A stretch of DNA of 64,000 nt, taken from contig RWJK01000216.1 of assembly GCA_004335835.1 (NCBI GenBank), positions 1-64,000 of the forward strand, given 5' to 3'. Shown one piece after another: positions 692 to 63,053 of this stretch (positions are counted from its first letter, which is position 1; each line of letters begins with the position of its first letter). The stretch is from Scenedesmus sp. ARA3. Its lineage: Eukaryota; Chlorophyta; Chlorophyceae; Sphaeropleales; Scenedesmaceae. The notes beneath the pieces were generated by a model. The model ran no database searches. It saw only the letters and a program-made list of their open reading frames with translations, and was not told the origin of the DNA. The position numbers were made by a program, and so were the translations under genes.

Positions 692-1476
692 ATGTCTGCC
701 GCAGCGATGCCCGAGTATCTGTGGCTGGTCGTAGCGGGGGCTTTCGCTGCCTTCGGCTATGGCTGGGCGACAGGTGCGTTCCACATGTTCGGAGCAGTCA
801 TGTGTTCCTACCATCCTCTACGCACCACGTGTTGAACACCTCAATTTTGAGCCTTGCAGGTGCAAACGATGTTGCTAACGCTTTTGGAACCTCGGTAAGA
901 GCAGCCGCAAGCAGTACAGCCTGCTGGCATCAGCGTGATGCTGCAACCCAGCAAAATGCATGACATGACTAATCTCAGCCACTCACAACAAGCGCCGTCA
1001 GCAGGAGGGGCAGCATTGACTGCACAATCCTTACCAAACGTCCTCTAGCATTCTATCAAGTTCAACTTTTTATTCCTATCAATATGTGTTACTGATGAAT
1101 CGATGCTCCTGCTGGCCAGCACCTGTGCTGTGTTGCTGCTCAACCACAGCACCAAGTCCTGGATCATGCTGACTACATTGCTGCAAATCTGTGTGCAACG
1201 TCTGTTGCTGCTACCTGCGCTGTGTCCCCCAGGTGGGGTCCAAGTCCATCACCCTGCGCCAAGCTACTGTGGTGAGCAACAACCCTGCCCCATCCTGCAG
1301 TCACTGCGCCCCTGCGACTGGCAGCAACCAATAACGCGTGTTGTATGCAAGCTGCTCAAGGGCTCATGCGTATGAGTCAATCTCTCTGAAGCAGCAGGCT
1401 ACATGATATGTCTGTTGGTTTTGAATGCGATGCCAGCACATGCGCACATGCCCAAAACCCGCATGCACAGGCCAAA

Positions 1477-1510
<34 letters not shown>

Positions 1511-3851
1511 TTGCCGCAGCTTGCCGCCATCTTTGAGTTTGGCGGCGCCATGCTGCTGGGCCGCGTGGTGACCAACACCATCGCGGGAGGCATCGCAGAC
1601 CCACGCATGTTTGCGCGCACGCCCGAGGTGTATGCCTGGGGCATGGTGAGTGGAGTGGCGTGCAGTATGCTTTGTGCTGCGCCTGCCAGCTGTATGAGTA
1701 GGCCGCTTGGTGTTTGCACGCACATCTGAGGTGCACGCCTGGGGCATGGTGAGTGGAGGCGCGTGCCGTGTGCTGCACCTGCCAGCTGTATGAGTGGGCC
1801 TCTTACTGTTTGCGCGCACACCCGAGGTGTACGCCTGGGGCATGGTGAGTGGCAAGCCACATATCCGATGTAAAAACAATCATGGTTTTGAGTGTGCTGC
1901 GCCTGCCAGCTGCAATACACTTGAACGCAAAATGGTTGCCATATGGACATGTCTCTGCTGCTCCACTGGCCATGATGATTGTGATTAGCGTCTGCACATC
2001 GCCGCATCACATCCGCTAGTACTCTGCAACTGCCTAGCACAGCTGCTGCTGTAGCCTACACTGCCACAGGCTGCAGGCTTCATACAGAACATCGTTGGTT
2101 CTGCCCTGCTTGTCTCTGGCTGTCGTGCTGCGTGCAGGTGTGCGCCCTGTTTGTGGCGTTCGTGTGGCAGGGCTGGGCGTCCGGCAAGGGATACAACGTG
2201 TCTGCCACACACTCCATCAGTGAGTAAAAACCAGTCAACAACAGATGGCCTGTGTGTCAGATGTGATTCTAACGTGCATACGTACAGGATGTGCAAACTG
2301 TCTTGTTGCCCCGCCAGCGCCTGCATGGGGTGCAGTGCCTGCTGCCGTTGATCGCAGTGAGGGTGTGACAATGTTCATGCTCTGCACTCACCACCTGCAA
2401 CACACCTGTCTGCTGCCACCACAGCCGCTGCTGCTGCTGCTGTTCATAGTCGGCAGCATCATCGGCTTTGCTCTCGCCTTTGGCGGCACCGGTGCTGTCC
2501 AATGGGCCATGCCTGACCAACGCTCCTCCCCATCGATACATTGTTTGACTGCTGCTGCTGTTGCTGCTGCTGCTGCTTCTTGCAGTCGGCAGTATCATCG
2601 GCTTTGCCCTCGCATTTGGCGGCACCGGCGCCGTGCAGTGGGCGCGCCCCGACCCCCGCTCCTTCCCGCCCTACCGAGGCATTGTGCCCATTGTGCTGTC
2701 TTGGGTGGTCAGCCCCATCTTGACTGGCGCGGTAGCTGCTGCTGTGTTTGGCCTGACGCGCTGGCTGGTGCTGCGGAGGGAGAGGGCTGCCAAGCTGGCG
2801 TTCTGGGTGCTGCCGCCGGCTGTGCTCATTACCGTGATGATCAACGTCTTCTTCGTATGTGAGTACGAGTGCGGCTTAGGGGTGTGTTATATCAGATGTG
2901 CATGTTCACCAGGATCAGTGGAGATAGATACTACCGTGTGCTCGCCTGCTCTATGTAATCAGACATGATGTGTGGGTACCTCTTGGCGCAGGGCTGAGCT
3001 GACACGACACCAGACACAGCGATAGTGGAGGCAGCGATTGCTGTGCTAGCCTGCCGTGGTGTGATCAGCACTGAGCAGCTAGTAATGTATATAAACACGG
3101 GTCCCGTGCCGAGTTATTGCAACCCCATAACGTCAGCGCCAAGCCCCTCGCCCAAGATGACCCTGCATCCCCTCCACCAAACATGCGTGTTTCTGCTGTG
3201 GCCTTGCTGTATGCGCTGTATGCAGTCACTTGTGTCGCGCTCCGGTCCCTGGGTAACGACTGGTGTTTTGACCATGCATCCCCTCTGCTGCACATGTGTT
3301 TCTGCTGTGGCCCTGCTGAGTGCGCTGCAGTCACTCGTGGGGCGCTGAGGTCCCTGGGTGACGAGTGGTCTGTGGACAAGGCAGCCTGGGTGTCAGCACT
3401 CATCGCTGCCGGCACGGCAGGGTTCACGGCGGTTGTGATACTGCCGCTGATCAAGTGGCGGATGGCAAAGCAGGATGCAGAGGCAGCTGAAAAGGCGAAG
3501 GACGCCGAGTGAGCATGCTTGCGTCAAAGACTGCTGCTGCTGCTGCTGCTGCTGCTGTAATTGTTGCAATCGGCTAGGTGCCTGCATGTGCGGACTTGAC
3601 AATCTTTTCGCTAGCTGTCTCTTTGCAGCTACGCCCCACAAACAGCACCTGCTACTTTCAACACCACCAATCTCTCACTTGTCATTTGCAGGGCACAGGG
3701 CGACCTGGCCGTGGAGGTGGCAACACACAGTGACCTGGCCCTAGCCAAGGATGGTGCAGAGCCCCCCAGCTCCAACCCCTTCATGCGCCTATTCCGCTCA
3801 GCCTCGAGGGCAGCGCTGTACGGCACCTCCGTGGATGTGCACCAGGTGAGA

Positions 3852-3882
<31 letters not shown>

Positions 3883-5365
3883 CAACTAAGGAGGAGTTCT
3901 GTGCAGAGTTGGAGGATGTCAGCTGCTGTGGTGACCGCGCTCAGTGCAGTTTGCTTCACAGTCCTGCCACTGCAGCTGCAGCCTGCCCGATATAGCTTAG
4001 TGTCGCCTTGCAGCAGTCATTTGCACATCCTCCTGACCACACTACCCCAGCGCCACAAGCAGCAACTTCATGCACTCCTGAGGTAGTGCTGCTGCTGGTG
4101 CTGCTGCAGAGGCCCGAGTTCATGCTGCTGCTCTCTGCATTGCATGTTGATGCATTTCTTGCAGGTGGTAAAGGACGAGTACATCGACCTGCTGCTGCTG
4201 CTGCTGCTGCTGCAGCCGCTGCTGCCGACTTCTCTGTTGCTGCTGCCCTTCTGCCTCTGCGTGTGCTGATGATCTGCATGCAGGTCGTGATGGAGGATGA
4301 GTACATTGCGGCGCTGCACGCGCGTGCTGAGAAGTTTGACCCCCAGGCTGAGCGCACCTTCGGGTACTTGCAGGTGGGCTGCCGGCTGACACAACTGTCA
4401 TGGGATGAGCATTTGTCAGGGGATGAGCAGTTGTTACAGGGTGACCGTTTGTCATGGGATTCGCAATCGATGATTTCACCTTTGGCTACCTGCAGGTGGG
4501 TGGTGGGGTGCGGCCTGACATGTTGGCTGCAGGAGTGTTCCAGGCCTTTTTGCAAGTCCTCCCTTGGCAGGACATGCGCATGCGTGCTTTGGTTACGTCG
4601 TGCAACCAAGCTCCCTAATGCCCTGCAATGTGGTGTGCGTTGGCATGGGTGTTTATTGCAGTGCTGGTTTTCTTGCAGCTCACTCACCGGCCTAAATCCT
4701 AAGATTGCTCATCAGCACAAACAACTGGGTGCTGCCTGTGCTCGAGGTGGGCCAGATGGCGGGCCCCCTGGCGGCCTTCAACAACTCAAACACCCAATCA
4801 ACCACGCCATGCTTCCTTTGCTGTGCCTGCAGGTCTCTGCTGGGCTCTGTGTCAACCTGCACGCCTCAGAATCAAGTGCTGCTTCGACTGATTGCAGTTT
4901 TATGCTTGCAGGTCTTCTCCGCAATCTGCGTCATCTTTGCTCACGGCGCTGGCGAGGTGGGCCAGATGGCAGGCCCCCTGGCAGCAATCTATGACATCTA
5001 CAGGAATGGCTCCCTCAGCAGCAGCCTGTCGCCCGACATCTGGTGTGTGCTGGTGGGCGCGTTTGCGCTGGTGGTGGGCCTGGCAACGTATGGCTACCAC
5101 GTGACGAGGACAACGGGTGTCATGCTGGCCAAGCTGAGCCCTTCAAGGTGAGCGAGTCAGGGAGGTGGATGGGTGCGTGCTTCAGCCAACAGCGCTTGCC
5201 AAAACGTCAGTGTACACTCGTTATGAAGTGCCGGAGGAGCCAATGGCTGCTGCTGTGCACCGTTGAGTCCAGAACGCCGCATGCTGTGACAATGTTGTAA
5301 CGCCCGTGCACACGCGCCCATGTGTCCAGCTGACATGTCATAACTGACATGGCGCCAACCCCTTG

Positions 5366-5400
<35 letters not shown>

Positions 5401-7520
5401 GCAGGGGCTTTGCTGCTGAGCTGGCCACAGCCCTGGTCATCATGGTGGCTTCACAGTGAGTGGCTTTTGCACAGCAGCTGACGCAGCAACATGTTACTTG
5501 TCACTTGTTACTTGTTACTTGTGCACAGCCCTGTTCATCATGGTGGCCTCGCAGTGAGTGGCACAGCAACCAACCAGCTGCGCAGTAATAGCGTTATAAC
5601 AGTGCCTTTGCAGCATTAGAGCTGGCTGTGAAACCTGCCTCCTGAAACACGCTGCTCGCGCTCCTGTCAGCTTGCAGCAGCAGCCTGCTTGCAATCAGCC
5701 ATGGGCGGCAGCAACGCAGCTGCAACTCCGCAACTTGAGGGCACCTTTGACCAGCATGCTGGAAGCGGGTTGCTGAATAGTCGCCAGCTGCGGCTGGCTG
5801 CTGCTGTGCTGCTTTGGCTGTACAGCATGCTTACCTCCTGCTGCTGCTGCTGCTGTTGCTGCTCAGGCTGGGCCTGCCCACCTCCTCCAGCCAGTGCATC
5901 ACCGGCGGCATTGTGGGCGTGGGCATGATGGACGGCTGGAAGAACGGAGTCAACTGGAAGCTCTTCGGCAAGCAGGTGAGCATGAATCTGCTGCATGCTA
6001 CTTGCAGTTATTGTGGGCTGCTGCCTTCAGAGGGCCTGTGTCCCAATGGCCTGGGGCTGCATGATGGACGGCTGGAAGAACGGAGTCAACTGGAAGCTCT
6101 TCGGCAAGCAGGTGGGCATGAGCAGGGCTCGCAGCATGCCAGGAGTTGTGGTAGCATGCCAGGAGTTGTGTTTGCCTCTGTAGACGGCCTTTGGCCCGGT
6201 TCTATTTGTTGCATGAGGGACGGCTGCAGGAGTAGCTTGGAATGGAAGCTGTTTGGTAAGCAGGTCATGACCTGCTGCATGACAGAGCTGAGTGTTGCTT
6301 GGTACCGTGGAGCAGAACGTGTTACTGGCAGCCCAGCTTTCTTGCTTGATGAGCACGGAAAGCTGATATGCTGTATGGGTTTCCTACTCAACAACAACCT
6401 ACTCAACAACAACCCAACATGTGCTGCCTGCTGACCTGCAGTTCATCTCCTGGGTCGCCACCCTGTTCATCTGTGTGCTGGGCACAGCTGCTCTCTTCGC
6501 CATCGTGAGTGCAAAACATACCGGGCACAAGCAGCACAGACGAACCCCCTACATGTGCATTGTGTGACTTGAGCAAAATAGTGCAGCGTGCTTAGCTGCG
6601 TGGTCACCATGTTGTCTGCTATTCCTGCCATTCATGGCTGCACATGACGCTGCAGACATTCGTGTGGCAGACATATCCCTCTCTCCTGGCGCTGTGTGTA
6701 TCCTCCTCCTCTGCTGCATTTAACTAATACATCCGGTACGTCCACCTTCCATGTTCAAACCACGCAGGGAATCTACACACCTTCCAAGATCGATGGAGGC
6801 CACGTCATCGCCTACGAGAACGGCCTCTCCAACACCACTGGGACTCTGCTCAAGGGCTTCAATGAGTCGCTGCTGTCTTTTGAAGAAGCCTCAAGTGCAC
6901 GCGTGCTGGCAAACCTCAACCCTGCGCAGTGGCAGGAGCTCAACGAGACAGTGGCCAGCATTGCAGGCGACAACAGGGATGTCACCGCCACGCGCGGCAA
7001 CACCGCAAGTGAGTGAGGCCTGCACTCTATGAGAGACGCAACATTGTTTGTGTTGATGTGTTGGCCTTTGAGGCGCTTTGCAGGCGCAGGGAGACGGTGC
7101 CTGCTAAGGCGATTATTGTTAGCGCGGCGCAGTTTTAAGTTAATAGTGCTGCAGCAGCAGCAGCTGGCGGCAGTTGCCATTGTAGGTGCTAATTTAGCGT
7201 GAAGCATGCCAGTCATTGCTTGCCTGGCGCAGCCACTGCAATCTGTTGCACTACACACAACACAGCTGCCACCCTGTTACGTTTGCTGACAACCCTTTCA
7301 CCTCTTTGTGTGGTTCTGCTGCCTGATTGCTGCTGCAGTCCAACCCGCCTTCGTGATGGACACCCTTGCCCAGGCCATGGGTCTGTTCCAGAACAACAGC
7401 GTGTTCACACTCGGCCAGAACAGCGTCTTCCCGGGGGCCAAGCTCTGCAACAACAACGTCACAGCCGACATTACTGCTGGGATCAACGCGACATGCATAA
7501 CCCTGATTCTGACCAAGTAA
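692..7520 (+). CDS. PHO4/PTB-family sodium-dependent phosphate transporter
   Basis: Polytopic membrane symporter for inorganic phosphate (PiT/PHO4 family; PTB in green algae). Predicted exons: 692-773, 860-894, 1233-1271, 1520-1645, 2138-2219, 2586-2858, 3331-3508, 3692-3845, 4284-4373, 4912-5147, 5405-5455, 5867-5975, 6442-6504, 6768-7008, 7339-7520. A 42-nt exon at 6656-6697 also keeps frame and is optional. The product is about 646 aa (660 with it). Exon 2 gives the family signature GANDVANAFGTS, split across an intron. Exons 4-6 give AAIFEFGGAMLLG, ATHSIIGSIIGFALAFGG and a hydrophobic block. Exon 7 begins FTRGA, the usual F-x-T/K-GA position. The second half has AHGAGEVGQMAGPLAAIYD where many relatives have a second GANDVANA. 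The C-terminal exons encode a hydrophilic segment with several N-x-S/T sites. The start is the ATG at 692, directly before the first membrane segment. Many introns carry partial exon copies. Substrate is inferred from the family. Confidence 0.9.
1612..1858 (+). repeat. Three tandem copies of the exon-4 3' edge and splice donor
   Basis: The end of exon 4 (encoding RTPEVYAWGM, then GTGAGT at 1646) recurs at about 1713-1748 (donor 1749) and 1809-1844 (donor 1845). Periods are 103 and 96 bp. Each copy also carries intron sequence with GCCTGCCAGCTG. All three donors look usable. Only the first is consistent with the conserved protein length. Confidence 0.9.
2441..2645 (+). repeat. Duplicated 5' part of exon 6
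   Basis: Sequence encoding VGSIIGFALAFGGTGAVQWA occurs at about 2450-2512, preceded by an AG. It occurs again at 2586-2645, behind a (CTG)n-TGCAG acceptor. The upstream copy is interrupted after the W-A codons and has no nearby donor, so it reads as a decayed exon copy. Confidence 0.85.
3165..3370 (+). repeat. Duplicated acceptor and start of exon 7
   Basis: The acceptor plus exon-7 start (…GCAGTCACTCGTGG…GTCCCTGGGTGACGA) at about 3280-3370 is preceded by a diverged copy at about 3165-3262, about 105 bp away. The copy has its own TATGCAG acceptor. Only the second copy opens into the conserved frame. Confidence 0.8.
4160..4520 (+). repeat. Partial copies flanking exon 9
   Basis: Exon 9 (4284-4373) is mirrored on both sides. 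A copy of its 5' edge (coding VVKDEYID) lies at about 4164-4190, behind its own GCAG. A copy of its 3' edge and donor (coding GYLQ, then GTGGG) lies at about 4476-4500. Both run into CTG or unrelated intron sequence. Confidence 0.8.
4738..5000 (+). repeat. Partial copy of exon 10 core upstream of exon 10
   Basis: Sequence encoding EVGQMAGPLAAF at about 4741-4785 copies the EVGQMAGPLAAI stretch inside exon 10 (about 4954-4990). The upstream copy lacks the exon's own acceptor context and is not needed in the protein. Confidence 0.8.
5410..5560 (+). repeat. Copy of exon 11 3' edge and donor
   Basis: The end of exon 11 (coding TALVIMVAS, then CA|GTGAGTGGC at 5456) is copied at about 5525-5560 with the same donor, GCAGTGAGTGGC. 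Spacing is about 105 bp. Confidence 0.8.
5905..6268 (+). repeat. Three copies of exon 12 3' half
   Basis: The exon 12 end (coding MMDGWKNGVNWKLFGKQ, then GTGAGC at 5976) is repeated almost exactly at about 6055-6112 (then GTGGGC). A decayed third copy lies at about 6215-6265 (EWKLFGKQ). Spacing is roughly 137 and 153 bp. Confidence 0.9.
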
Positions 7521-32380: not shown

Positions 32381-32418
<38 letters not shown>

Positions 32419-32773: not shown

Positions 32774-32816
<43 letters not shown>

Positions 32817-33730: not shown

Positions 33731-33782
<52 letters not shown>

Positions 33783-34515: not shown

Positions 34516-34546
<31 letters not shown>

Positions 34547-39342: not shown

Positions 39343-39389
<47 letters not shown>

Positions 39390-40831: not shown

Positions 40832-40859
40832 AATGGCACAGCCATATGGCTGTGCCATT
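40832..40859. repeat. Perfect 28-bp palindrome
   Basis: AATGGCACAGCCAT at 40832-40845 is directly followed by its reverse complement. Allowing one mismatch, the arms extend to about 40828-40863 (GCAG…TTGC). Confidence 0.96.
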
Positions 40860-41922: not shown

Positions 41923-41928
41923 CAGGCC

Positions 41929-42020
41929 TCAGTGGGTCACGTCAAAGGTGGCCCTGGAAGTGAAACCAAGGCCTGGCAGGGTGATGCCCTGCTGCTGCAG
42001 CTCCCTGCGGGTGCGCTTCT

Positions 42021-42060
<40 letters not shown>

Positions 42061-42861: not shown

Positions 42862-42913
<52 letters not shown>

Positions 42914-47750: not shown

Positions 47751-50748
47751 CTAAGCACGTTGGCGGTGCTTCTTCTTCACCGGCTGTTGCTGCTCCTGCT
47801 TGCTTGGCTGCGTGTGCTGCTCCTGCTGTTGTTGCTCTTCCTGCTGCCGCTTCTGGATCAGGTGTTCCCTGAATAGCTCTACCCTCTTTGCTGACACCGC
47901 CAGCTCCAGCCGCAGCTCATTGTTGCGCCTGTACAGCTTGCTGAGCCGATACTGCTCCTGCAGCGCCTGCTCAGCCCCTTGCACATCCACAGCATCCGCA
48001 GCTGCCACTGCAGCTGCAACCACAGCAGCTTGCTGCTGCTGCCGCTGCTGCGGCTGCTGCTGCTTCCGCTTGCCATGCTGCTGCACATGCTGCTGCGGCT
48101 GCTGCTCCTCCGGCGCGTCTGCTGCTGCAATCGCGTGCTGCAGGTCCAGGCACCATGGCCGGCCAGCTGCTGCCTGCCTTGCTGCCATACCTGCTTTGCT
48201 GCTGCCAGCAACAGCCCCATTGACCCGCCCTTTACCCCTGCCTCCTGCACCGGCAGGCATCGGCGGCGCCGGCCTAAACCCTCCCAGCTTCACTGGCCCA
48301 TAAACCGCTGCCACGTCCTGCGGCCCTGAAGCGCCAGCTATCACAGCAGCTCCAACAGCAGTGCCAGAGCCAGCTGCTGCGTCAGCATCCCCACTGCCAC
48401 CAGCAGCAGCACTGCCAGCAGCAGCAGCAGCAGACCCTGATCCTGAGCCTGGTGTGAGCGTGAGCAGCATGCGCGCTGCTGCTGCAATGTGTGGGTGGTA
48501 GTGCTGGGCCAGCAGCGGCAGCTCCCACAGTGCTGCAGCCATCGCACCTGCACAGGCAGCGGTGACAGTGACAGTGACGGTTAAGGGAAAGGATGCTTGT
48601 GGAAGGTCTCTGGTAAGAGCAGATGATATGCACATGTGCTCGCCAGCAGCAGATACGCACAAGCAACTGCGTAACAAAACTCAACCGCTCTGGCATAGTG
48701 AGTGCAGGGTGCTTTGCAAGCACACGTCTAGCTGTCAAAACATGCCTTCAAACTAACCATCACAGGCTGCTGAGCACTGCACCTGCCATGAACCTCATTC
48801 CAAGGCTATGGCAACTGCAGCATGCACACGGACACCTTTTGAACAGGCACCCTTTCCAGAGCTGTGCACACAGCAGCACCTCGACCCACCTGCTTCCGAA
48901 GGGTCCGAGCAATCCGCATCAAACTGCCGCCCGCCAACAGGAGCGCCACCCTCCCATTCAAACAGGCACGTCAGCTTGGGATACCGCCGCATCAGGCGGT
49001 ACAGTAGGCAGCCACAGCCCAGCGCTTCAGGCGTACTGCTGGTGAGCATCAGCAGCGCCAGTCGCTTTGCATATGCTGCCAGCCGCCCCATGTCTGTCTG
49101 CTTCACTCCCAGCAGCTGCTGCTCCAGGCAGCGCAGCAGCAGCACTGGCGTAGGCGCTACGTCTCTGCTGCTGCTGCTGCTGCTGCTGCTGGCTCCGGCT
49201 GCAGCGCCCTTCTGCTGCTGCTGCTGCTCGGCTGCAGCAACTTCCAGCCCCAGTATGCTTGCACGCACCGCCTGCAGTGCCTGCAAGTCCTCCTGATCCA
49301 GCCACTGCTCATCTTCATCGGCAGTACCGTTCGCTGCTGCTGCAGTGCTTCCTGCAAGCTTTCCTGCAAGCTTTCCTGCAAGCCTTGCAGGAAAGTCGCC
49401 CGCCTCGTGCAGCAGCTGCAGCGGCACCAGCAGCAGCGCCTGGTACAGCTGGTTGTAGAAGGCCCGCCTGTCGATTGTGAGTGCCTCGCCTTGCCCTTTC
49501 AAGATGTCCAGCGCAGCCAGCAGCACTCCCAGCCGCTCACGCAGCGGCAGCGCACCAGCAGCCAGCAGCTGTGAGGGGCAGGCACGACAACACACGACCG
49601 CAGCGGCAGCAGCACAACGCAACGGACCAGGTTAAGTGAGCAGGCATCGGAGGACTAGGCCCATGCGGTGCCGTCAATGCAACCCAAACACGGACTAGTT
49701 TGCTGTCCACACATCAGCTGCCAGCTCGCTGTATGCTGCATGAGCAGCACACCTGGAGTAATGAGGATGCGGCAATATTCACGCATACGGCTGCGAGCTA
49801 CTGGCGACTCTGCACACCGTTCAAACATCCCACAGTCAATTTCACAAAATCTCACAAGCAAACCAAAATAATTATGATCCTTGGCAGCCTGCGCACCTCC
49901 TGCAGCACAGCCATGAGGTCATTGAAGTACTCCACACTGATGAGGTGGCTGTAGCGCCCCAGGCCCTCCAGCGCCGGCTGTAGCAGCGGGAACTTGCGCG
50001 CAACCTTGGACGCCTGCCACGGCTGCTGCAGGACGCCCTTGCTGCTGCTGTTGTCGTCTGCGGCGGCCGCTTGCGCTGCTGCTGCTGCTGCTGCCTGGTT
50101 GGAGGTTGCTGTGCTGCAGTGCTTCAGCACGCGGAAGAACACCTCAAATAGCGCCTGCAGCATACACAGTCAACGCAGGTAAGTCCACTCATCAGCATGT
50201 ACCGCTTCGTGGGATCATGGAATGAGCTGCGGCATACACAATCCCTTGCATGAAATCAGGCACAGCATGTCTTCAGGCACCAAATAGTTGACATTATCAG
50301 CAAGCGTAACATGTCAAACAAACACCAAACCAAACAAAACCAGGCAAACCAGGCACTACCACCCCACAGCGCCGCACCTCAAGCATCTGGCTCTGCAGCA
50401 GCGCCAGCGCAGCCAGGTCGAGCCCCGCCTCAGCCTCTGCCCGCTCAATTTAGAGCGGATTCATAAAAATCCAAACACACACAATGCCGCACCTCCAGCA
50501 TCTGGCTCTGCAGCAGTGCCGGCTCAGCCAGCTCACGCCCTGCCTCTGCCTTGCAGGTGGAACAATCAGCAGCATGCAGCCTGCATAGATGCCAAAACAA
50601 GCATATCACCCACGCACCTCCAGCATCTGGCTCTGCAGCAGCGCCAGTTCAGCCAGGTCAGGCCCTGCCTCCGCTTCCTCAAACTCCTTGTCCAGGTCAG
50701 TCTTGCGCTTGGCACGGCGCGCTGCCTTCTTGCCCAGCTGCAGCAGCA

Positions 50749-50799
<51 letters not shown>

Positions 50800-53700
50800 C
50801 GATAGCTCACATGAACGAACAGTTGGCGATGAGGAGCACTATTACTGTTCCACCGCTTCTCAGAAGCCTTATGTTGGCTGCTGACTGAAGTCCACTAGAC
50901 AAAACACATGCCAGCCTGACATACTAATTGCTTTCTCCTCACCTTCTTGGCTTCATATTGTTTCGCCACTTCGTAGGAGCCTATGGTTGGCTGCTGCCTG
51001 AATCACAATAGGACAAGGCACATGACAGCATTGCATCTATCTCCTCCTCACCTTCTTGGCCTTGCCGCCGCCCGCGCCCTCGCCGCCTGCGCTGACAGGC
51101 GTCACCTGCTCGAAGCGCAGCACCAGCAGGCAGCTGACCACCACGGGGGGCACGCTGCACCTGCGCGTCTTCACCAGGTCAGCCACCAGCTGCACAGCCT
51201 CAAGGGAGGACTTGCCCTGCAGGATCGAGCAGCGAAAAGGCAAACATGATACAGTAAAGCGATGATCAGGTTGCGCCATCTTCACCAGGTCAGCAACCAG
51301 CTGCACAGCCTCAAGGGAAGACTTGCCCTGCAGCAGTAGACATGGCATAACAGTTGCGGAATTCAGTTTGCAGTGCTTGCTGTTAGGGCAGGTCGGCCAC
51401 CAGCTGCACGGCCTCCAGCGAGGACTTGCCCTGCAGGAGTGTGCGTTTGAGAGGCAGGCGGGGTGCAGTGCGAACAGTGAGATGTGTACCCCATTTGACC
51501 AGGTGAGCCACCAGCTGCACAGCCTCACAGCGCAAAGTTGTTCTGCAGGAGTCGGCAGTGACAAGGCATGTGAGATGCAGTAAGGTGACCATTATTTTAA
51601 GCCGTCTTCACAAGGTCGACCACCAGCAGTACAGCCCTGTGCCAACATACGTGCCCCACCCACCTGCACGTCCTCCTGCAGCAGCTGCCGCAGCGCATCA
51701 CACGCAGCCCCCTGCACCTGCGCATCAGGCCCCAGCATCATCGGCACCAGCGCCTGCAGCAGGTCGCTGCAGTAATTAAACCCCGGCCGTGCCACTAGCA
51801 ACTGGCCCATGCAGCGCACAGCCACACGCTTTGTAGCCAGTACACTGCTGCTGCTGCTGCTGCTGCTGTGGCCTGCTGTAAGTGCGGCGTTGGGTTTTGC
51901 GGTTGCTGCTGCCAGTAGGGTTTTGAGGTAGGCTTGGTAGCCTTTGAGCAGCGCTTGCTCGAAGTCACGCAGCGCCTGCACCTCCTTGCTGACCCGCATC
52001 TGCAACCGAGAGAGAAACAGCAAGCGGCCAAACACACATATGAAGATGCTAGGCCAACCGGCAACAGCAGATTGTGTTTTGCCATGTTGACAAGCAAGAG
52101 TGACAGGCAATACACAACCCTACAGAGGCTCTAGCCCAGCTGCTGTTGATTCTGCAATGCAGTGCACAACAGGGCAGCAAACCCGTTTTACAAGCAAGCA
52201 AACCCTGTGAACCCTGCCCACCTCCTGCAGCACGATCAACAAGGCAGCAAAACCGCTTTGCAAGCAAGCATTCTATCTAAACCCCGCCCACCTCCTGCTC
52301 CTCCTCGGTCAAGCTGCGTATCCTGTAGCCAGGCAGCAGGTCCTTAAACACAGCCAGCAGCGACAGTAGTGCCAGCCGCACCACCACCCCATCCCTGTCA
52401 GCAGCACATCCCAGCAGCAGCCGCAGCCCAGGCACTACATGCTTTTCAGGCTCTGCCAGCAAGTGCTGCGCTGCCAGGGCCATCTGCTGCTTTAGGGCTT
52501 CTCGGCGCTGCTGGCTGTCCTGCAAGGACATGAGGCTGAGCAGAGCAGGAGAGAGGCCGCCCTCAGAGGGCAGTCCTGCAGCATTCAAACAACGAAACAG
52601 ACGTCAACAACAAGCAGCAAAGTCAGCAGGTGCTACGTGTGCATGTTGTAGTTCTACGACCTTGTTGTGGCTGTGTGCTGGCCAAGGGTCGGCAACATCA
52701 CAGACCACCACAGAAAAGGTGATCCTTTAGCACTCTGTCTTGACATAGCAGCACTGGTTCTGTTGACACAGAACACGTAACCTCACATGACGCCTGTAGC
52801 TGAGCTGCATGCCAAGGCAGTGAGAGCAGCATATTTGCAGCAGCCGAACCTCACCTTTCTTGGCTGCAACTTCTGCAGCAGCTGCTGCCTTCGCCGCCGC
52901 CTGCCTCTCCGCTGCTGCGGCCGCGCGGCGCTCCGCTGCCTCTGCAGCTGCCGCTTCCTTTTCCGCTGCTTTCTGCGCCTTCTCGCTCTGCAGCGTGTCT
53001 TCAACTTGAATGCCCTCCACCTGCACCTTAGCTGCTATCAGCTGCTGCTTGCGGCTAGGCTGGAAGAGCACCTCTCCTGCTGCTGTCTTCACAGGAAGAC
53101 CATACTTGCTGGCCTTGGAGACCTGCGGGGGAGCACAAAACCAAGAGATGTCAAGCAGCACCAAGTGACAGATGCACAAAGTCAGCACCGAGCTAAGCCA
53201 ATCAACGATGCAAAGTACGCCTCAAGGTGACCTTAGAGCACTCTTCGCAACCAAACACAGCCAGAAGATTCTACACTGCGCACCTGCTCGGCTGCTCTTG
53301 GCTTGCGCTCATACTCTGCTGCGCCCTCATCCTCAGAGCGGCCACCAGCCTCTGCATCACCACCATCATTGCCAGCTGCTGCTGCCGCTGCTGCTGCTGT
53401 GGCGGCGGCGGCGGCCGCTGCTTTCTGCTTGTCTTTCACGGCCCTGAGCAGCAGATGCAAATGGCGGGGTGACAGTTTGGGTGCGTGCATGCACATGAAA
53501 GTCTGCTGTGCTGCAGCACTGTCAGCAGGAAAGCACTGGTCCGGTGTGATAGACAAGCAACGACAGCGCACTGACACGCTGTGATTTGTATCTGCAAGGC
53601 TGAGCAGCAGCTTCCAAAAGATACAGCAGCGCAAGCTGCGACTTTCAACCACACTAACACTGTCACGCTCACTTGTCCAGCTGCTGTGCATCCAGGTCTC

Positions 53701-54098
53701 GCAGGAAGCCCAGCTGAGAGCCATACTGCTGCACAAACTGCAAGTCCTCCTCGCCCACATCAAGGCCCTGCTCATCTTCATCATCTGAGCCTGGCAGCGG
53801 CACATCCTGCTGCTTGCTGGAATGCGGCTTGCCCTGCAAAGGTGCAGAAGATATACCTCTAAAAGATAGTAACATGATGCTGCAGTCATGGCAGCAGCTA
53901 TTGGCCAGGCTGGCTCATTGCTGAGCAGAGAATCTTCAAACCGCACCCGTACATCTTTATATGACATACTGGTGACCATACACGCCATTGATGATTCCAG
54001 CCACTTACCTTTGGCCCCTTGCTGAACTTCTTCTTCTTGCTGCTGCTGCCGCTGCTGCTGCCAGCCTGGGCTGTCGGGGGCTTCCGCTTGTTGCCCAT
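47751..54098 (-). CDS. NOC3: Nucleolar complex protein 3 (NOC3), ribosome biogenesis
   Basis: Nucleolar factor that moves pre-60S ribosomal particles from nucleolus to nucleoplasm with NOC2, and is linked to replication licensing in yeast. Exons (minus): 54098-54009, 53833-53673, 53443-53284, 53122-52855, 52575-52292, 51999-51664, 51216-51052, 50737-50618, 50154-49897, 49568-48890, 48547-47751; every phase agrees, about 1105 aa. The N-terminus is basic (MGNKRKPP … SSKKKKFSKGPK). The middle has FKDLLPGYRIRSLTEEEQE, MRVSKEVQALRDFEQALLKG and GYQAYLKTLL, the NOC3 core. The CBF/MAK21-type region has ALFEVFFRVLKHCSTA, LEGLGRYSHLISVEYFNDLM and AALWELPLLAQHYHP. The C-terminus is Gln/Lys-rich. It is longer than usual (about 660-800 aa in yeast and animals) because of Ala/Gln/Ser runs. 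Several exon edges have intronic copies. Confidence 0.93.
50366..50690 (-). repeat. Three copies of NOC3 exon-8 3' edge with donor
   Basis: The segment coding LALLQSQMLE, then a GTGCG donor, is found at about 50616-50665 (true end 50618). Copies follow at about 50490-50545 and 50376-50430. Spacing is about 125 and 115 bp. All three keep a GTGCGG/GTGCGT donor. Confidence 0.88.
50739..50799 (+). repeat. (CAG)n tract, about 20 units
   Basis: Nearly pure run directly upstream of the NOC3 exon-8 acceptor on the sense strand, where it reads CTG and stands in for a pyrimidine tract. Confidence 0.92.
50880..51060 (-). repeat. Duplicated NOC3 exon-7 end and donor
   Basis: AAGCCAAGAAGGTGAGGA-type sequence (exon end KAKK plus donor) occurs at about 50938-50958 and 51048-51060. 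Both are preceded by a copied TTGGCTGCTG(C/A)CTGAA(T/G) intron piece. Spacing is about 110 bp. Confidence 0.75.
51165..51550 (-). repeat. Four copies of NOC3 exon-7 start
   Basis: Sequence coding GKSSLEAVQLVADLVK behind a CTGCAG acceptor occurs at about 51170-51220 (used, start 51216), 51280-51330, 51385-51435 and, more decayed, 51497-51548. Spacing is roughly 105-115 bp. The first three all have intact acceptors. Confidence 0.92.
52165..52302 (-). repeat. Duplicated donor region after NOC3 exon 5
   Basis: AACA(A/G)GGCAGCAAA(A/C)CCG…TTTGCAAGCAAGC followed by CCGCCCACCTCCTGC occurs at about 52169-52228 and 52239-52297. Only the second holds the true exon-5 end (GAGCAGGAG, then GTGGGC). Confidence 0.75.
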
Positions 54099-54414: not shown

Positions 54415-57034
54415 ATGCAGTCTGGGGACACTACGGACACCATGGACCTCAGCAGTAGCCAGGTTGGAGTGGGAATGCTGCCTACCTTGTATTACTTTCC
54501 CGATTTTATAGCTGAAGACGAAGAGCAGAGGATCATGGCAGAGGTGCATGCCTCTCAGGCCAAGTGGGTGCAGGTCAGGACCCTGCATGCACACACATCT
54601 GCGCAACTGCACTGCAGCCTGCAACACACTGAACTGTTGCTGCCACAACCCCTACTGTGCCTACTGTGCATGCATGCATGCATGCATTATCAAATCCAAC
54701 TTGGTGGCCAAATTTCTGCCAAACCTACGGAGCTTAGCACAACACCATGCCCCCAAACCAGCGTGTGTACAGTGAAGGAGCTGCCAGTTTTAGTTACACC
54801 TCATCACTCTTGCTCAGCAGCACCCCTCATCTCCACCAGTCATCCCACGTTCTTCTGCAAGCAAAAATACTCCCTACATTGTATTCTTTGTGCTGCAGCT
54901 GTCAGGCAGGCGGCTGCAAAACCACGGAGGCATCGTGCACAGCAAAGGCCTCATCCCCGCACCCATGCCACGCTGGCTGCAGCAGCTATGCAGCCGCGTG
55001 CACAGCCAGCTGCTGCCACTGTTTGGGGAGCAGCCGCCTAACCACGTGCTGATCAACTCGTACCAGCCGGGATGCGGCATTATGGTAAGCCGGCACAAGC
55101 AGCTGCTGCTTTGTGCTGCGCATCGCTGGCCGCTCTGTGCAGCTGCATGCAAGCTCTGTAGAGCTGCCAGGTCTGCAGCAGTGTGAGTTCCACTTGGTTG
55201 GGTTTGTTCTGCAAGTGTGTGCTCAGAAAGGCCCAACCCTGTTGCCGGCATCTGTCAGGCAGCTCTGGTAATAAACATCTCTTAACACCTACCATGTGTT
55301 TGACTCACGGTTTGACTGCTGCCATGTTCGACAACTGCAGCCGCACCAGGACGGCCCGCTGTACCACACCATGGTGCTCATCATGGCCGCCTGTGCTGCA
55401 AGCTCACAATAGCCTGCATAGCCATGATCCCAGCAGCTGTCTTTCTAATTTTGTACGTTTTTGAATGTGATTCCCACTGCTGCCTTGTGTGGGCTGCAGC
55501 CGCACCAGGACGGCCCGCTGTACCACCCCGTGGTGCTCATCATGGCCGGCCTGTACTGCAAGCTCACAATAGCCTGCATAGCCATGATGCCAGCAGCAGT
55601 CTTTCTACTTTTGTACGTTTTTGAAGTTTCAATTTTACTGCTGCATTATGCATGCTGCAGCCTCACCAGGATGGCCCGCTGTACCACCCCGTGGTGCTCA
55701 TCCTGTCGCTGGGCTCACCCGCAGTGCTGCGCTTCTGGCGCAAGCAGGACGAAGGTGCGCGGCCTGCAGGGTCTATGGGCCAAAACCTAGACATGTGCGA
55801 CCTCAGCTTAGCTCAACTCAGCTGAGCTGAGCTGGCTTGAGTGATGCTGAGTTGAGTTCAGTGCAGGCTGCTTGCATCAAGGTGTGTATGCGGCTTGTGC
55901 GGAGCAGAGCAAGGGGGTCAGCAACAGGGCTTTAGAGAGAATTTGCTGCTCCGTGCATCCTTCCACGTTGAACTCTTGGACAGTGCGTGCATTTGCATCG
56001 CAATACGGCTAGCGAGCAAGGTGCATGCGGCCATTGATGCAATGCTGCTGCTGCTGTGGCCGTTGCCTCGCCTCAATTTGCTGTGCTGCAGGTGGCACTG
56101 GTTATGCGCCTCCAGTCGCCTCTCTGCTGGCGATGCCTCGCAGCCTGCTGGTGTTCCGCGATGAGGCCTACCACAGCTGCCTGCATGGCATAGAAGAGGT
56201 AAGGGCATGAAGCGGCATGTAATGCGATGATGCACGCCACAGCCGCCTGCATGGCATTGAGGAGGTGAGGGGGCCCAGCCGCAACATGCACAACCCATTG
56301 CGCGCATGTCTGCTGCAAACAATATGCTGGATTGTGTGTGCTGCCTGCACTTGTCAAACAATCGACAGGTCACATGGGTGCATTGCCAGCAGCCGTGAGT
56401 GTGAACTGCCGTTCTGCTCTGGCAGCTGTTGCACGTATATGCTGCGGCACTGTAGCTGCTCAGAAGGCGTGCTGCTTACAGTTTGGCCAGTGCATGCATG
56501 CGAGTGCCTTTTTGAGGTAGCAGAGCTTGCCGCTAGAGGTCCAAAGAGTATCAAAGATTGTTTGCGTCTGTGTGTCTGGCTGTGTTTGTGTACCAGGTGA
56601 CTGAGGAGGTCTTAGATGCATCAGTAGTCAACCCCGAAGCTATAGAGCAGCAGCAGCAGCAGCATCAACAGAAGCAGCAGGAGCAACGGCAGCAGCTGCA
56701 AGCAGAGCGGCAAGAAGCACAGCATCAGCAAGAAGATCCGCAGCAAGCACAGCATCAGCAAGAAGTGCCGCAGCAAGCACTGCAGCAGCAAGCAGAGCAG
56801 CAACAACATCAACAGCAGCAGTCAGGGCAGGCACATGCTGCAGAGGTGTGCAGCCAACCTGCTGCTGCAGCGCAACATGCAGACAGCAGCGGCAAGGCGA
56901 GCAGCAGCAACGGCAGCAGCAGATGCGACAGCGGCACTGTGCCGTGCAGCGTGCCGCGTCAGGGTGAGCGCATATCCCTCACCATCCGCCGGGTGCTGAA
57001 AGTGCACAAGGCGCTGGGGCTGCTCAGGCGGTGA
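54415..57034 (+). CDS. ALKBH6: ALKBH6-like Fe(II)/2-oxoglutarate dioxygenase
   Basis: AlkB-family oxygenase, proposed to act on alkylated nucleic acids; the substrate of ALKBH6 is not settled. Exons: 54415-54573, 54899-55084, 55661-55754, 56092-56198, 56597-57034; phases agree and the product is 327 aa. Residues 20-50 read TLYYFPDFIAEDEEQRIM. Exon 2: RRLQNHGGIVHSKGLIP and NHVLINSYQPGCGIM. Exon 3: PHQDGPLYHPVVLILSLGS, with the iron-binding His and Asp. Exon 4: SLLVFRDEAYHSCLHGIEE, with the distal His. Exon 5 ends ERISLTIRRVLKV, whose Arg should bind 2-oxoglutarate. Between the last two motifs lies a Gln/Ala/Ser-rich insertion of roughly 90 residues; ordinary ALKBH6 proteins are about 240 aa. 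The first ATG of the exon is used; an internal Met ten codons on is also possible. Exons 3 and 4 have intronic copies. Confidence 0.92.
55335..55720 (+). repeat. Three copies of ALKBH6 exon-3 start with acceptor
   Basis: CTGCAG followed by codons for PHQDGPLYH(T/P)(M/V)VLI occurs at about 55337-55390, 55495-55545 and 55655-55705. Periods are about 158-160 bp. Each unit is followed by a shared CTGCAAGCTCACAATAGCCT intron piece, except the last, which opens into the rest of the exon (start 55661). Confidence 0.93.
55811..55858. repeat. Hairpin in ALKBH6 intron 3
   Basis: CTCAACTCAGC and GCTGAGTTGAG form an 11-bp stem around about 20 bases. The inner CTCAGCTGAG is itself palindromic. It may be an RNA structure or just a small foldback. 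Confidence 0.7.
56165..56270 (+). repeat. Copy of ALKBH6 exon-4 end and donor
   Basis: CCACAGC(T/C)GCCTGCATGGCAT coding HSCLHGIEE, then GT(A/G)AGG, occurs at about 56171-56204 (used) and 56238-56271. Spacing is 67 bp. The copied donor GTGAGG is intact. Confidence 0.88.
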
Positions 57035-59592: not shown

Positions 59593-62500
59593 TCAGCTGC
59601 ACTGATTTGGAGCTGCCTCTACAGCGCCCGCCAGCTGCTGCTGCTCCAGCTGCTGAAAGTGCTGCTGCACTGCATCCAGCATCTGCTCTGTGCCCCCGGT
59701 CCACTTCACATCAGCCACCACGAAGCGATCCGGGTGGGCGGCAACTGCTGCCTCCACAGAAGGCTGCAACAACAGACAGAGGCAGCGGCCGGAGCAGCAG
59801 CAGTGCAGATCAGGTTGGTTTGAAGAGGGCAGGCAGTAGCAACACACGCGCCACGCACTTGTGGAGGGTGCGGCAAATGCAGCATGTATTGCTGACTTAC
59901 GTTCAATAAGTGCACACGGTCAATGATACTGTCTCAGTGATGCCATGTGAGGGCCGAGTGGACATCCAAACAGCTCTGTGCAAACTCACCGCGCCAATGC
60001 TGGGCAGGAACACCTTTCCCACAGCTGCAGCCAGCTGCATTTGCTTGACCATCATGTGAGTGATACCATATGTCAGTGCCATCAGTCAGTGCTGCCGCAC
60101 CATTTGGATGACACTATACGGCAGGAGAAGGTCAGTGATACTTAAAACAGCTCTGTGCATGCTCACCGCGCCAATGCTGGGCAAGAACGCCTTGCCCACA
60201 ATCGCAGCCAGCTCCAGGTCATTGTCATCATCACACAGCAGCGCACAGCGGCCAGCAGGCACGCCAAACTTCTGCATCAGGTAAGCTGCTGCACCCTCCT
60301 TGCCACTTGCTTTGGGGTAGAAGTCAACCACACCCAGGTTGGTGCTGCTGGCAAGGCAGGCGGGCCGCGCTGCAACTGCGGCTGCCAGCTGCTCCTCTGA
60401 CTTGTTTGGCGTCTTGGTCAGCCTGTGACGACAAATCGGCCGAGGTGCACAAGCAGCAGCATATTAAGGCGTGTGTTGGCTTGGCGTGTGTTGACACAGC
60501 TTTTAAGGCATCCCTATGGCTGACCAGTACGCCAACCAAGTCGGATGAACAGCTGGCATGGAATCGCTGCCAATGTGTGCTCATGCTCCGCCTTCTTGCA
60601 GGGCAGGAAGGCTGAGTGTGACCATACATCGGCGGTCGTTTCATGCCAGCTGCTCGTCTGACTTGTTTGGCGCCTTCGTTAGCCTGTGAGATGCACGGGG
60701 CACGTCGCAATGATGAATATGTGCACACAGCAGCAAGCCAGCAAGCATGCAGTTGTGACAGGCGCCGGGCGCCTACTGGCATAACAGTGCGCAGCAGCCG
60801 CTACGGTAATGACAGTACAAGCGCTTGCACCTGCTGCCCAGAATGCGCTGACTTTCTCAAAAGTCAAGGGCCATGCCAGCAGCTGCAGCTGCAGCACCGC
60901 GGTGCCACGCACATGACCGCGAGCTGTAGCTGTTGGCACCTAGGCTCCACCTGCATAAAACTTGTTGAGGCTAGAACGCCCCCACCCTACACCAGCAGCT
61001 GCAGCTGTTGCTTTACCTGAAGGCGGGCTGTAGCTGTTGACGTCCAGGACCCTTCTGCATGCGTTCTCTTCTACCCTGTCATGCCCTGTTGGGCCCTCTG
61101 CCTGACACTGCCATCATACAACCCTCCCACCCCACCCCAAACCAGCAGCCGCAGCCGTAACCCCACCCAAGCCTCGGAGGTGCTGCAGCTATTGGAGTCG
61201 AGGCTCCCATCTGCACGCGCTTGATTCCACCCAATACCAACCCCACCCTATACCAGCAGCTGCTGTTGCTTTACTAAGCATTACGAAATCACCTGAAGGC
61301 GGTGCTGTAGCTGTTGGCGTCCAGGTTCCAGCCCTCCCGGTACAGCTGGCGGTACCAGTCCCACAGCGCACCCTGCGGCAGCAGCAGCAGCAGCAGCTGG
61401 AGTCTGCAATCCCTGCATGATGACGTCAATCAGATTCATAACTTGCTGCACACAGCAGGGACCCTCTGAAGGGTCCCAGCCTGTTGGCCGGGCTTGCACC
61501 AAGCTCATGAGCGTCACCCGAACATCATTCTTGAACATGCAGCACACTAATGCGCAAGCTGGGCCTAGCCTACAATGCATCGAGAGCAGCCGGCTTGTAA
61601 CACAGCGTGCTGCTGCCGCACCTTTCTGTCCAGTGGTGGCAGTGCGTCCTGGTCAGGCGGCCCAGCCACATCTGCCAGCTGCTGCCTCCACTGCAGGTCT
61701 TCCCGCAGCGGGCACACTGCAACAGCATTGCACACATGCGTGCACATATCAGCAGGCAATTTTGGTGACTGCTGCATGGGGAGCAGCACTGCAAGTGCTG
61801 CCAAGCGCTCCAAGTGCTGCCAGGCACTGCAAGGGGAGCAGTGCATGGCTGCGCATGGCTGCCTGCACAGGGACGCTGGAACTGCAATACAGTTATTAGT
61901 AACACTTCACAACGAGGAGGTTGCTGAACCTGAGCAGGCACAAACAATGTCTGCATCAATGTACTTTGATCGGCAGTGTGTTGCTGCTTGCTCACTTGTG
62001 AGGCCTGAAGGGTCAGGGTACCAGATGCGACCGCCTGCACCAGCAAGCGCAGCAAGCATGCTTCAGCTGAGCTTGCATACAGGTGGCGGATGTCCTGCTG
62101 CCTTGCATGCAAGTGCTTGGCTGTACCAAAGATAAGAGCGGTGCTTGCATCATTATGGCGTTGAGAAAGCGCTACCGTAAAACCATGTCCAACACCGCAC
62201 GTGCTTTGCCTCATGTACATGCAGCGCTGCTGCTAGCTGTGCCTACACGTCGTCTGCAGGGACCCTACCATTGACCACCAGAGATGCTGCATTTGCAGCT
62301 GAGCTGCTCACCGTTTTCTGCAATTATGGCGTCTGCTGCCGGCAGGTAGGGCAGCCTCTGCAGCACGGTTGATGTGCGTGCACCGGAGATGATGACCAGC
62401 GCTGCTCCTGCCTTGCGCAGCTGTGCTGCCTTTGCCAGGCTGGCCTGAGAGATGATGCCCTGTGGGATCCAACACACAAGCCATTCAGCACTTAGTGTTT

Positions 62501-63053
62501 GTTATTTTTTTGCCGTCCCAAGGGGCAACATTTTGTTTTGGCCTGAGAGGTGATGCCCTGCAGGATGCAGCACACCAATGATTTGACGCTTGCTGTTGCA
62601 TGCATGCATGCAAGCAAGCAGCTATGGTTACTCAAGGCAGTTGCAGCTTGTTGTGACACATTTCTGAGCAGATTTATGATGACAGTAGCATTACAGCTTG
62701 CATGCACTATGCAGCTGGTGTGCCTTGATATGTGTGAGGCGTGCAGGGTGTGCACCTGCTGCTGGGCACACAAGGCAGTGGCCAACTCACCAGCCTGCCA
62801 GTGCTAGACTGTGGCAGCATCAGAATGTCTCCGACAACCTGCATTCCAATGAGTCAATGAGCTATGTATACAAGCTGAGCTATGCTGCTGCTGCTTCTGC
62901 TTTTGCTGATGACGGTGATGATGTTGGGGCTGGGACCTGACAGTGCATTTCAACTGATCACACCTCCTGCAGCTGTGCTGGGTCATCCAGGTAGTGAACT
63001 AGCGTGCCATCTATGTCCGAAAAGCATATGTTTCGAAAAGAAGCGGATGACAT
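59593..63053 (-). CDS. HAD-superfamily phosphatase (Cof/sucrose-phosphatase type)
   Basis: Predicted phosphatase acting by an aspartyl-phosphate intermediate. Exons (minus): 63053-62964, 62838-62791, 62459-62312, 62034-61996, 61716-61622, 61372-61293, 60422-60167, 59763-59593; all phases agree, 308 aa. Motif I: ICFSDIDGTLVHY (both Asp present, residues about 10-16). Motif II: LVIISGARTSTVLQRLPYLP (Ser). Then IIAENGGRIWYPDPSG. The cap region carries WDWYRQLYREGWNLDANSYS. Motif III Lys: FYPKASGKEGAAAYLMQ. Motif IV: CDDDNDLELAAIVGKAF. The tail reads VVADVKWTGGTEQMLDAVQQ. The start (MSSASFRN) is the first ATG in frame, eleven residues before motif I. No clear targeting peptide. The natural substrate, probably a sugar phosphate, is not readable from the sequence. 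At least four exon edges have intronic copies. Confidence 0.9.
59985..60200 (-). repeat. Copy of HAD exon-7 end and donor
   Basis: GCTCACCGCGCCAATGCTGG and the following CA(A/G)GAACGCCTT(G/T)CCCACA occur at 60161-60200 (used) and about 59987-60025. The copy codes GKVFLPSIGA, then GTGAGT. Spacing is about 173 bp. Confidence 0.88.
60395..60690 (-). repeat. Copy of HAD exon-7 start and acceptor
   Basis: The acceptor CACAG plus codons LTK(T/A)PNKS(E/D)EQLA occurs at about 60390-60425 (used) and about 60645-60690. A weaker copy of the Ser-Asp-Glu-Gln part lies near 60535-60560. Spacing is about 260 bp. Confidence 0.8.
61000..61330 (-). repeat. Copies of HAD exon-6 end
   Basis: ACCTGAAGGCGG(T)GCTGTAGCTG followed by TTGGCGTCCAGG (true exon end at 61293) recurs at about 61015-61050. 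Weaker versions lie near 60920-60950 and 61170-61210. The intervening blocks share CACCC(T/A)ACACCAGCAGC(T). Confidence 0.75.
62440..62570 (-). repeat. Copy of HAD exon-3 acceptor
   Basis: GGCCTGAGAG(A/G)TGATGCCCTG occurs at about 62443-62463 (used) and 62540-62560. The copy has a good CTGCAG acceptor but loses the frame after GITSQA. Confidence 0.82.

Follow-up and report, generated by a model that had tools for sequence, protein, structure and literature searches.

Partial copies of exon edges in the introns of a Scenedesmus genome: probable traces of short tandem duplications across splice junctions

In a stretch of 64 kb of DNA from Scenedesmus sp. ARA3 (assembly GCA_004335835.1, contig RWJK01000216.1, positions 1 to 64,000; hereafter the window), a first-pass annotation noticed that in at least seven multi-exon genes the edges of exons recur, together with their splice donor or acceptor, in the adjacent intron. 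We call these partial copies echoes, and ask by what process they arise, whether they really concentrate at splice junctions, and whether the genes make any use of them. In our reading, to which we assign a probability of about 0.7, the echoes are left by tandem duplications of units of about 118 bp that span a junction, are tolerated through splicing, and ratchet the introns longer.

The window (56% GC) belongs to an assembly of 87.27 Mb in 1567 contigs, from which we took a further 242 kb (loci L009–L033), giving 306 kb in total, or about 0.35% of the genome. Loci L009–L018 were picked for PHO4 matches and L019–L028 come from the same contigs, only L029–L033 being arbitrary places. Exact exons were obtained by aligning public proteins of Tetradesmus obliquus and Scenedesmus to the DNA with splicing allowed; the exons of the other window genes are our own predictions. 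The set of nine curated genes comprises 138 exons and 129 introns, all of the GT-AG type, and eight of the nine genes belong to one family (PHO4); L010, L012 and L013, whose spliced alignments are still inexact, were left out. The wider set includes 233 confident exons (45 curated and 188 predicted). The gene finder, the masks and the simulations were our own, the gene finder and the simulation being simple; with splice penalties and homology-curated seeds, the gene finder recovered 36 of the 45 curated exons exactly. The output of a self-trained gene finder, which broke genes into micro-exons, was discarded, and spliced alignments of the PHO4 paralogues to distant proteins were dropped as too noisy, closer proteins being used instead. 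The product of the phosphate transporter gene of the window is 97% identical to a protein of the OEZ85 gene set and 99% identical, over 100% of the length, to T. obliquus protein P0001 (OEZ86_007690), with 634 of 639 residues identical in the spliced alignment. By these matches the genome is that of T. obliquus or a very close relative.

The echoes found in the window, and the two genes with exact exons, are the following (LOV, ALKBH6, HAD and paralogues A–C are names taken from the first-pass annotation).

692–7517, + strand: PHO4-type phosphate transporter gene, 15 exons, seven of them with echoes (spliced alignment to P0001)
1608–1852, + strand: transporter exon 4, donor edge; source 1608–1653, echoes 1711–1758 and 1807–1852
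2452–2667, + strand: transporter exon 6, acceptor edge; source 2588–2667, beginning 2 bp inside the exon, echo 2452–2531 (81%)
3158–3386, + strand: transporter exon 7, acceptor edge; source 3329–3386, echo 3224–3281, older copy from 3158
4355–4500, + strand: transporter exon 9, donor edge; source 4355–4378, weak echo 4477–4500 (score 33)
4743–4985, + strand: transporter exon 10; source 4953–4985 (beginning 41 bp inside the exon), echo 4743–4775, the aligned part without a splice site
5426–5562, + strand: transporter exon 11, donor edge; source 5426–5464, echo 5524–5562
5923–6281, + strand: transporter exon 12, donor edge; source 5923–5985, echo 6059–6121 (98%), older echo 6211–6281 (75%)
15400–15521, + strand: LOV predicted exon 15489–15594, acceptor edge; source 15487–15521, echo 15400–15434
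16471–16752, + strand: LOV predicted exon 16417–16567, exon-internal; source 16471–16499, copy 16724–16752 without a splice site
17816–18103, + strand: LOV predicted exon 18054–18109, acceptor edge; source 18043–18103, echoes 17939–17999 (97%) and 17816–17876 (87%)
32335–32493, − strand: paralogue A predicted exon 31927–32358, acceptor edge; source about 32335–32362, weak echo about 32466–32493 (score 36)
42535–42747, − strand: paralogue C predicted exon 42265–42615, acceptor edge; source 42535–42630, echo 42652–42747 (92%)
47754–54098, − strand: NOC3-like gene, 14 exons (spliced alignment to P0121 of Scenedesmus sp. NREL 46B-D3, 867 of 1042 residues identical)
50373–50642, − strand: NOC3 exon 10, donor edge; source 50613–50642, echoes 50488–50516 and 50373–50402
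50843–51055, − strand: NOC3 exon 9, donor edge; a tandem copy that takes in no more than 4 bp of exon, with a period of 109–113 bp (71–72%)
51168–51636, − strand: NOC3 exon 9, acceptor edge; source 51168–51222, echoes at 51279, 51389 and 51495, remnant at 51603, the spacing being nearly constant (111, 103, 112, 111)
52167–52298, − strand: NOC3 exon 5, donor edge; period 70 bp (82%)
55335–55705, + strand: ALKBH6 (a gene with a 2OG-Fe(II) oxygenase domain) predicted exon 55661–55754, acceptor edge; source 55654–55705, echoes 55493–55544 (94%) and 55335–55385 (90%), period 161 bp
56158–56271, + strand: ALKBH6 predicted exon 56144–56198, donor edge; source 56158–56205, echo 56224–56271 (83%)
59968–60216, − strand: HAD predicted exon 60167–60422, donor edge; source 60145–60216, echo 59968–60039, itself called as an exon by the gene finder
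60383–60689, − strand: HAD predicted exon 60167–60422, acceptor edge; source 60383–60428, echo 60644–60689
60980–61325, − strand: HAD predicted exon 61293–61372, donor edge; source 61241–61325, echo 60980–61048 and further weak copies
62441–62575, − strand: HAD predicted exon 62312–62459, acceptor edge; source 62441–62477, echo 62539–62575

Such repeats are predominantly local and direct. Self-alignment of the masked window (E ≤ 0.01) yielded 46 direct repeats less than 1.5 kb apart, two that were farther apart, and nine inverted ones. In the 306 kb we observed 171 direct-repeat matches 25–500 bp apart (score at least 40), compared with 2 in a Markov-resampled control; at a score of at least 48 the spacing had a peak at 80–140 bp and a second one near 220–260 bp. 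The 233 confident exons gave 77 echo matches on 58 exon sides, compared with 2 matches with flanks from other loci, for which the control queries were without the 12-bp intron flanks. Every one of the nine curated genes contained echoes, which occurred on 28 of the 258 exon sides in the set, and the repeat families comprised 14 at donor edges, 12 at acceptor edges and 4 in introns. The arrays covered about 12% of their intronic bases (4,632 of 37,480), and 898 of their 17,502 exonic bases (5.13%) matched the adjacent intron, at most 400 bp away, at 80% identity or more; the control for this set, which was not clean, as its flanks were mostly paralogue-derived, gave 6 matches against 38 observed. 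The repeats of the transporter, the NOC3-like gene and the paralogue L018 involve exon edges, and the few intron–intron matches are situated in or beside such arrays. The pattern recurs in the 242 kb from elsewhere in the genome.

For 20 of the 21 exon edges listed in the first-pass annotation a local copy was present in the named gene. The transporter had an echo at all seven exons that had been named (4, 6, 7, 9, 10, 11 and 12), weakly at exon 9; outside it, the earlier exon numbers have no one-to-one match with ours, and we therefore counted by gene. In this count there were four junctions with an echo in the NOC3-like gene (our exons 5 donor, 9 acceptor, 9 donor and 10 donor), three copies in LOV, one of them exon-internal and without a splice site, one echo in paralogue C, two in ALKBH6, and four junctions in three predicted exons of HAD, three of which were also found in the search with the 233 exons. 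The exception was the protease gene, where the echo reported for exon 8 did not appear: no match at a score of at least 28 was found within 600 bp of the six predicted protease exons. The distances and copy numbers were as claimed, from 70 to about 290 bp and from one to four copies.

The unit has a typical size. In the nine curated genes the nearest echoes lay at a median distance of 118.5 bp (interquartile range 102–132, n = 28), and L018 contains five copies spaced 122–136 bp apart. The matches also respect the splice site: in the 233-exon set 33 of the 39 upstream matches begin at the acceptor or no more than 4 bp from it, 33 of the 38 downstream matches finish at the donor or no more than 6 bp from it, and only 11 of all 77 fall short of the splice site.

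The introns that bear echoes are longer by about the length of the arrays. The 27 echo introns (pooled from two merged detections) had a mean length of 413 bp, or 241 bp after subtraction of the mean array span of 172 bp, compared with 258 bp in the 102 echo-free introns; the difference was pronounced before the subtraction (p = 1.6e-9) and absent after it (p = 0.46). When homologous introns were compared among eight PHO4 paralogues, an intron with an echo exceeded its counterpart in all nine comparisons, by 110 bp on average. As the gain in length approximately equals the array span, we conclude that the echoes are inserted tandem units, each spanning one junction. Echoes at the same junction in different paralogues were not observed above chance (5 pairs, 2.8 expected, p = 0.15); thus, echoes are gained and lost. 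Two adjacent paralogues, L015 and L016, with differences at 53 of 193 fourfold sites, each carry echoes that are absent from the other. Hence the suggestion of the first-pass annotation, that short tandem duplication at splice junctions is a continuing process, is supported by the intron lengths and by the comparison of paralogues, which shows turnover within the species.

Whether junctions are enriched is a separate question, since by geometry alone 49% of the tolerated placements of a 118-bp unit would span a junction, and the impression of the first-pass annotation by itself therefore shows no enrichment. In 144 introns between confident exons we observed 21 acceptor, 15 donor, 1 two-sided, 3 exon–exon and 6 intron families, that is, a junction share of 36/42 among single-edge and intron families (two of the six intron-only families look junction-like, and all six were kept as intron families). 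In the nine genes the share was 26/30 as called, the 26 including L018 intron 10, in which the copy lies at the distal intron end, and transporter intron 9, in which it is exon-internal; it was 27/30 when L016 intron 9 was recounted as a donor echo, the gene model having swallowed the true junction. As the null, we let simulated tandem duplications arise in the 144 introns and accumulate substitutions and indels, the exon copy being held under constraint, and applied the same detection. The junction share of the detected events was 0.48–0.56, 0.52–0.63 and 0.54–0.66 in three simulation rounds, which puts the P value of the observed excess between 0.01 and 9e-7, according to the choice of null and count. 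Boundary enrichment over intron interiors, which the first-pass annotation had itself set as the decisive comparison, thus holds beyond a neutral null that includes the detection bias.

The similarity between an echo and its source is concentrated at the junction. In 48 edges that reach it, the match to the real edge was about 0.9 over the splice motif and 0.83–0.91 over the first 12 exon bases, fading by 30–50 bp into the exon; on the intron side it fell just beyond the motif. The median identity of the exon part was 0.87 in 29 acceptor and 0.90 in 26 donor echoes, whereas that of the intron part of the presumed unit was 0.55 and 0.54, respectively, compared with 0.52 and 0.51 in controls. 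A more sensitive test detected similarity of the intron part (p < 0.05) in 18 of 46 echoes, with about 2 expected, leaving 28 without it. In the young array of L018 intron 9 the entire unit is repeated, intron part included (462 bp at 87%). Copying of the exon alone, an explanation considered because of the sharp drop on the intron side, was rejected: much of the drop also arises under neutral tandem duplication with many indels, and the length test shows that whole units were inserted. Still, among echoes with an exon identity of at least 0.93, 11 of 17 had no intron-part similarity, compared with a simulated fraction of 0.15–0.32 (P = 0.006 against 0.32). The exon parts thus tend to look younger than their own units, which may be the effect of short conversion tracts from the exon edge or, less likely, of selection. 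In L016 intron 9 the echo differs from the last 35 bases of its own exon at one site, and the exon of the paralogue L015 differs at six.

At the level of codons the echoes changed roughly neutrally. Codon positions 1, 2 and 3 were changed at 26/315, 18/317 and 48/319 sites, respectively (best echo per edge, nine genes), and the ratio of third-position to other changes was 2.16 (1.44–3.25) in the nine genes and 2.01 (1.64–2.47) for all matches of the 233 exons, compared with 1.4–1.75 in neutral simulations; the changes are about those of a dead copy, with some room for weak constraint. There were five stop codons in echoes of the 233-exon set and none in the curated set. If the echo site were used, the shift modulo 3 would be random (0, 1 and 2 in 9, 7 and 9 of 25 echoes), and only 3 of the 25 would be open and in frame. 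The splice dinucleotides were intact in 24 of 25 edge-reaching echoes of the nine genes, compared with 21–22 of 25 that we estimate to survive by chance at an echo change of about 7%, and the splice motif was conserved no better than the neighbouring bases; in the wider set, acceptors were intact in 23 of 29 cases and donors in 25 of 26, four of the six exceptional acceptors being unaligned up to the edge. Strong selection on the coding sequence of the echoes, proposed from the first three curated genes, was dropped as an explanation when the signal fell towards neutral with more genes.

In the explanation that we favour, the genome would frequently undergo short tandem duplications, typically of units of about 118 bp. 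A unit beginning in an intron and ending in the next exon (or vice versa) would duplicate one splice junction, and no harm would come to the message provided that the spliceosome continues to act on the copy still attached to the remainder of the exon. The other copy would turn intronic, so that part of an exon edge and its splice site would come to lie one unit away inside the intron; this echo site is presumably not used. Each event would add one unit to the intron, and repeated events would build arrays, the introns ratcheting longer. At least a part of the junction excess may come from short conversion tracts running from the constrained exon edge to the echo, which would preserve the likeness of the exon part during the decay of the intron part; we lean weakly towards such exon-templated conversion, rather than targeted birth or selection, as the source of the excess. 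A more far-reaching version, which we regard as tentative, would make the junctions self-templating: duplication and short conversion would both favour the splice motif and the exon edge that bears it, perhaps owing to the lasting similarity of these stretches or to their exposure in transcription and splicing. Exons would then go on placing new copies of their edges in introns and renewing the old ones, and the ratchet would largely determine intron length in the lineage.

Several observations weigh against this explanation. Uniform duplication followed by neutral decay yields too few junction events (0.48–0.66 in simulation), and the core duplication model therefore needs an extra step. Conversion as this step rests on simulations with invented indel rates, on short alignments and on one paralogue case, and for exon parts of at least 30 bp the deficit of intron similarity is no longer clear (5 of 10 without it, compared with 0.13–0.33 simulated). 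In the arrays, as judged by eye, distance does not go with a clear age order of the echoes. The codon ratio is at or somewhat above the neutral values, and weak constraint on the echoes is possible; in the first three curated genes the bias was stronger (19/302, 16/306 and 59/311, with several echoes per edge).

The closest rival needs no preference for junctions at all: tandem duplication would be random everywhere and decay neutrally, and the excess would arise since a constrained exon copy stays recognisable longer. The geometric share of 49% is in line with it, as are the local duplications of similar unit size situated over 400 bp away from any predicted exon (17 families at distances of 60–260 bp in 130 kb, an upper bound, as exons were missed), and the codon ratio and the share of echoes with a short intron part are near the simulated neutral values. 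However, the observed junction shares exceed the simulated ones, and too many high-identity exon parts lack intron similarity (11 of 17), even if this contrast weakens at 30 bp and above; we consider this explanation unlikely. Alternatively, echoes could be decoy or regulatory splice sites kept by selection, competing with the real site and sending a share of the transcripts to decay. The nearly complete set of intact dinucleotides, the high match over the motif and the first exon bases with the falling intron side, and the codon ratio at or above the neutral range would all fit. At the same time, the motif is conserved no better than the exon part next to it, most of the intact dinucleotides are expected by chance, with acceptors less often intact in the wider set, and sharing between paralogues does not exceed chance, which makes this possibility quite improbable.

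It had also been proposed that echoes feed alternative or mutually exclusive exons. The echoes do carry splice sites, and whole-exon copies exist, such as that at L020 9172–9250, but a whole exon copied with both splice sites is not the rule: junction echoes consist of 13–82 bp of one edge, and given their random frame, the 3 of 25 that are open and the near-neutral codon changes, we find a general role of this kind highly improbable. That echoes lie in introns of other gene models is partly due to the construction of the count. The exception is L016 intron 9 (oriented 4695–4817), where the T. obliquus model P0177 runs through to the echo donor, adding 42 residues, whereas P0175, a second model of this gene that agrees with the locus at 492 of 501 residues, skips the echo. 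Insertion of a templated segment or of a mobile element with a long target-site duplication, instead of tandem duplication, would account for the many short echoes with abrupt ends and non-matching spacers, and a spacer inserted with its block would likewise lengthen the intron by the period. Among the 27 spacers between source and echo (median 78 bp), however, only three had scattered matches elsewhere in the 306 kb at E ≤ 0.001, no repeat family being found there; moreover, young arrays repeat the whole unit with its intron part, as in L018, and few copies (11 of 77) fall short of the splice site, so that we rate such insertion as improbable. Finally, the fragmentation of the assembly could suggest an artefact, for which we see next to no chance, as the copies differ in sequence and such copies exist in independent assemblies: the L016 echo is contained in P0177 from another T. 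obliquus assembly (a 5.4-Mb contig), with one residue different (A in P0177, P in the assembly studied), and a copy of the NOC3 exon 5 edge, 126 nt downstream, is translated in protein P0121 of Scenedesmus sp. NREL 46B-D3.

Gao and Lynch (2009) reportedly described how introns can originate by tandem, or internal, gene duplication. The marks of such duplication are seen here, namely direct repeats within a gene with a common period and one added unit of length. Intron gain by tandem genomic duplication, a known route (PMC3443670), shares with our case a short intragenic duplication tolerated through splicing; in that route, the duplication of an exonic AGGT creates a new intron, while here both the copied junction and the lengthened intron were already present. 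Tandem exon duplication and mutually exclusive exons (PMC9013439) likewise place exon-like sequence in a neighbouring intron, but as whole exons with both splice sites rather than, as here, mostly one edge; the fraction of exonic bases matched at 80% identity outside annotated exons is 0.08% in fly and 0.06% in worm, compared with our 5.13%, the methods differing so that only the rough scale is comparable. Repair-mediated duplications in vertebrates (PMC2671141) also are local copies of short segments, including pieces of exon and intron and splice sites, with only four partial exon/intron donors in the table and no constraint in the two whole-exon copies tested; copies at most 50 bp from the template were excluded there as tandem, whereas the echoes are tandem, junction-biased and have a unit of about 118 bp. 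Introners (PMC9860276) alter the intron content of many genes at once, as echoes do, but they copy themselves into many genes, and echoes are local and gene-specific. We found no description of the pattern in the open-licence literature, searched by titles and openings of abstracts, with subscription journals mostly outside; a dense, junction-biased and size-specific duplication that lengthens existing introns seems to be new.

The signature of intron birth from an exonic AGGT, a long terminal direct repeat, was restricted to one of the 129 introns, L018 intron 10 (20 bp; the next longest repeat was 9 bp, the median 5 bp). In this intron (oriented 6532–6775) the final 18 bases of exon 10 and the adjoining GT recur exactly at the intron end and the start of exon 11, which is the textbook mark of intron birth or of end conversion by duplication at CAG|GT; intron 9 of the window transporter, at the same position, has only a 9-bp run.

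Other features of the window include three near-palindromic hairpins of 143–150 bp (19010–19156, 40206–40353 and 60530–60672; 76–83% self-complementary), possibly small foldback elements; two minisatellites, at 23989–24119 (32-bp unit, 4.1 copies, 100% matches) and 17648–17805 (49-bp unit, 3.2 copies, 99%); and CAG/CTG-type trinucleotide runs throughout (e.g. 33732–33781, 50735–50799 and 42862–42912), which inflate open reading frames. Paralogues A–C (31900–46900, − strand) have pieces near 38.3, 43.0 and 46.6 kb that are alike at the DNA level, and the searched piece of paralogue C had no Pfam match at E ≤ 0.01. A predicted exon at 27073–27289 (− strand) gave EF-hand-like matches under the curated cut-offs.

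For annotation the finding carries a warning, as the public gene model P0177 includes an echo in its coding sequence. More generally, intron growth without transposons is poorly tested, and here its increments are still readable as junction-anchored units of about 118 bp. According to one published comparison (PMC5966456), T. obliquus has the longest introns of five algae, with a mean of 462 bp compared with 230–302 bp in the others. These long introns could partly stem from the echo process; they are consistent with such a ratchet but do not prove it.

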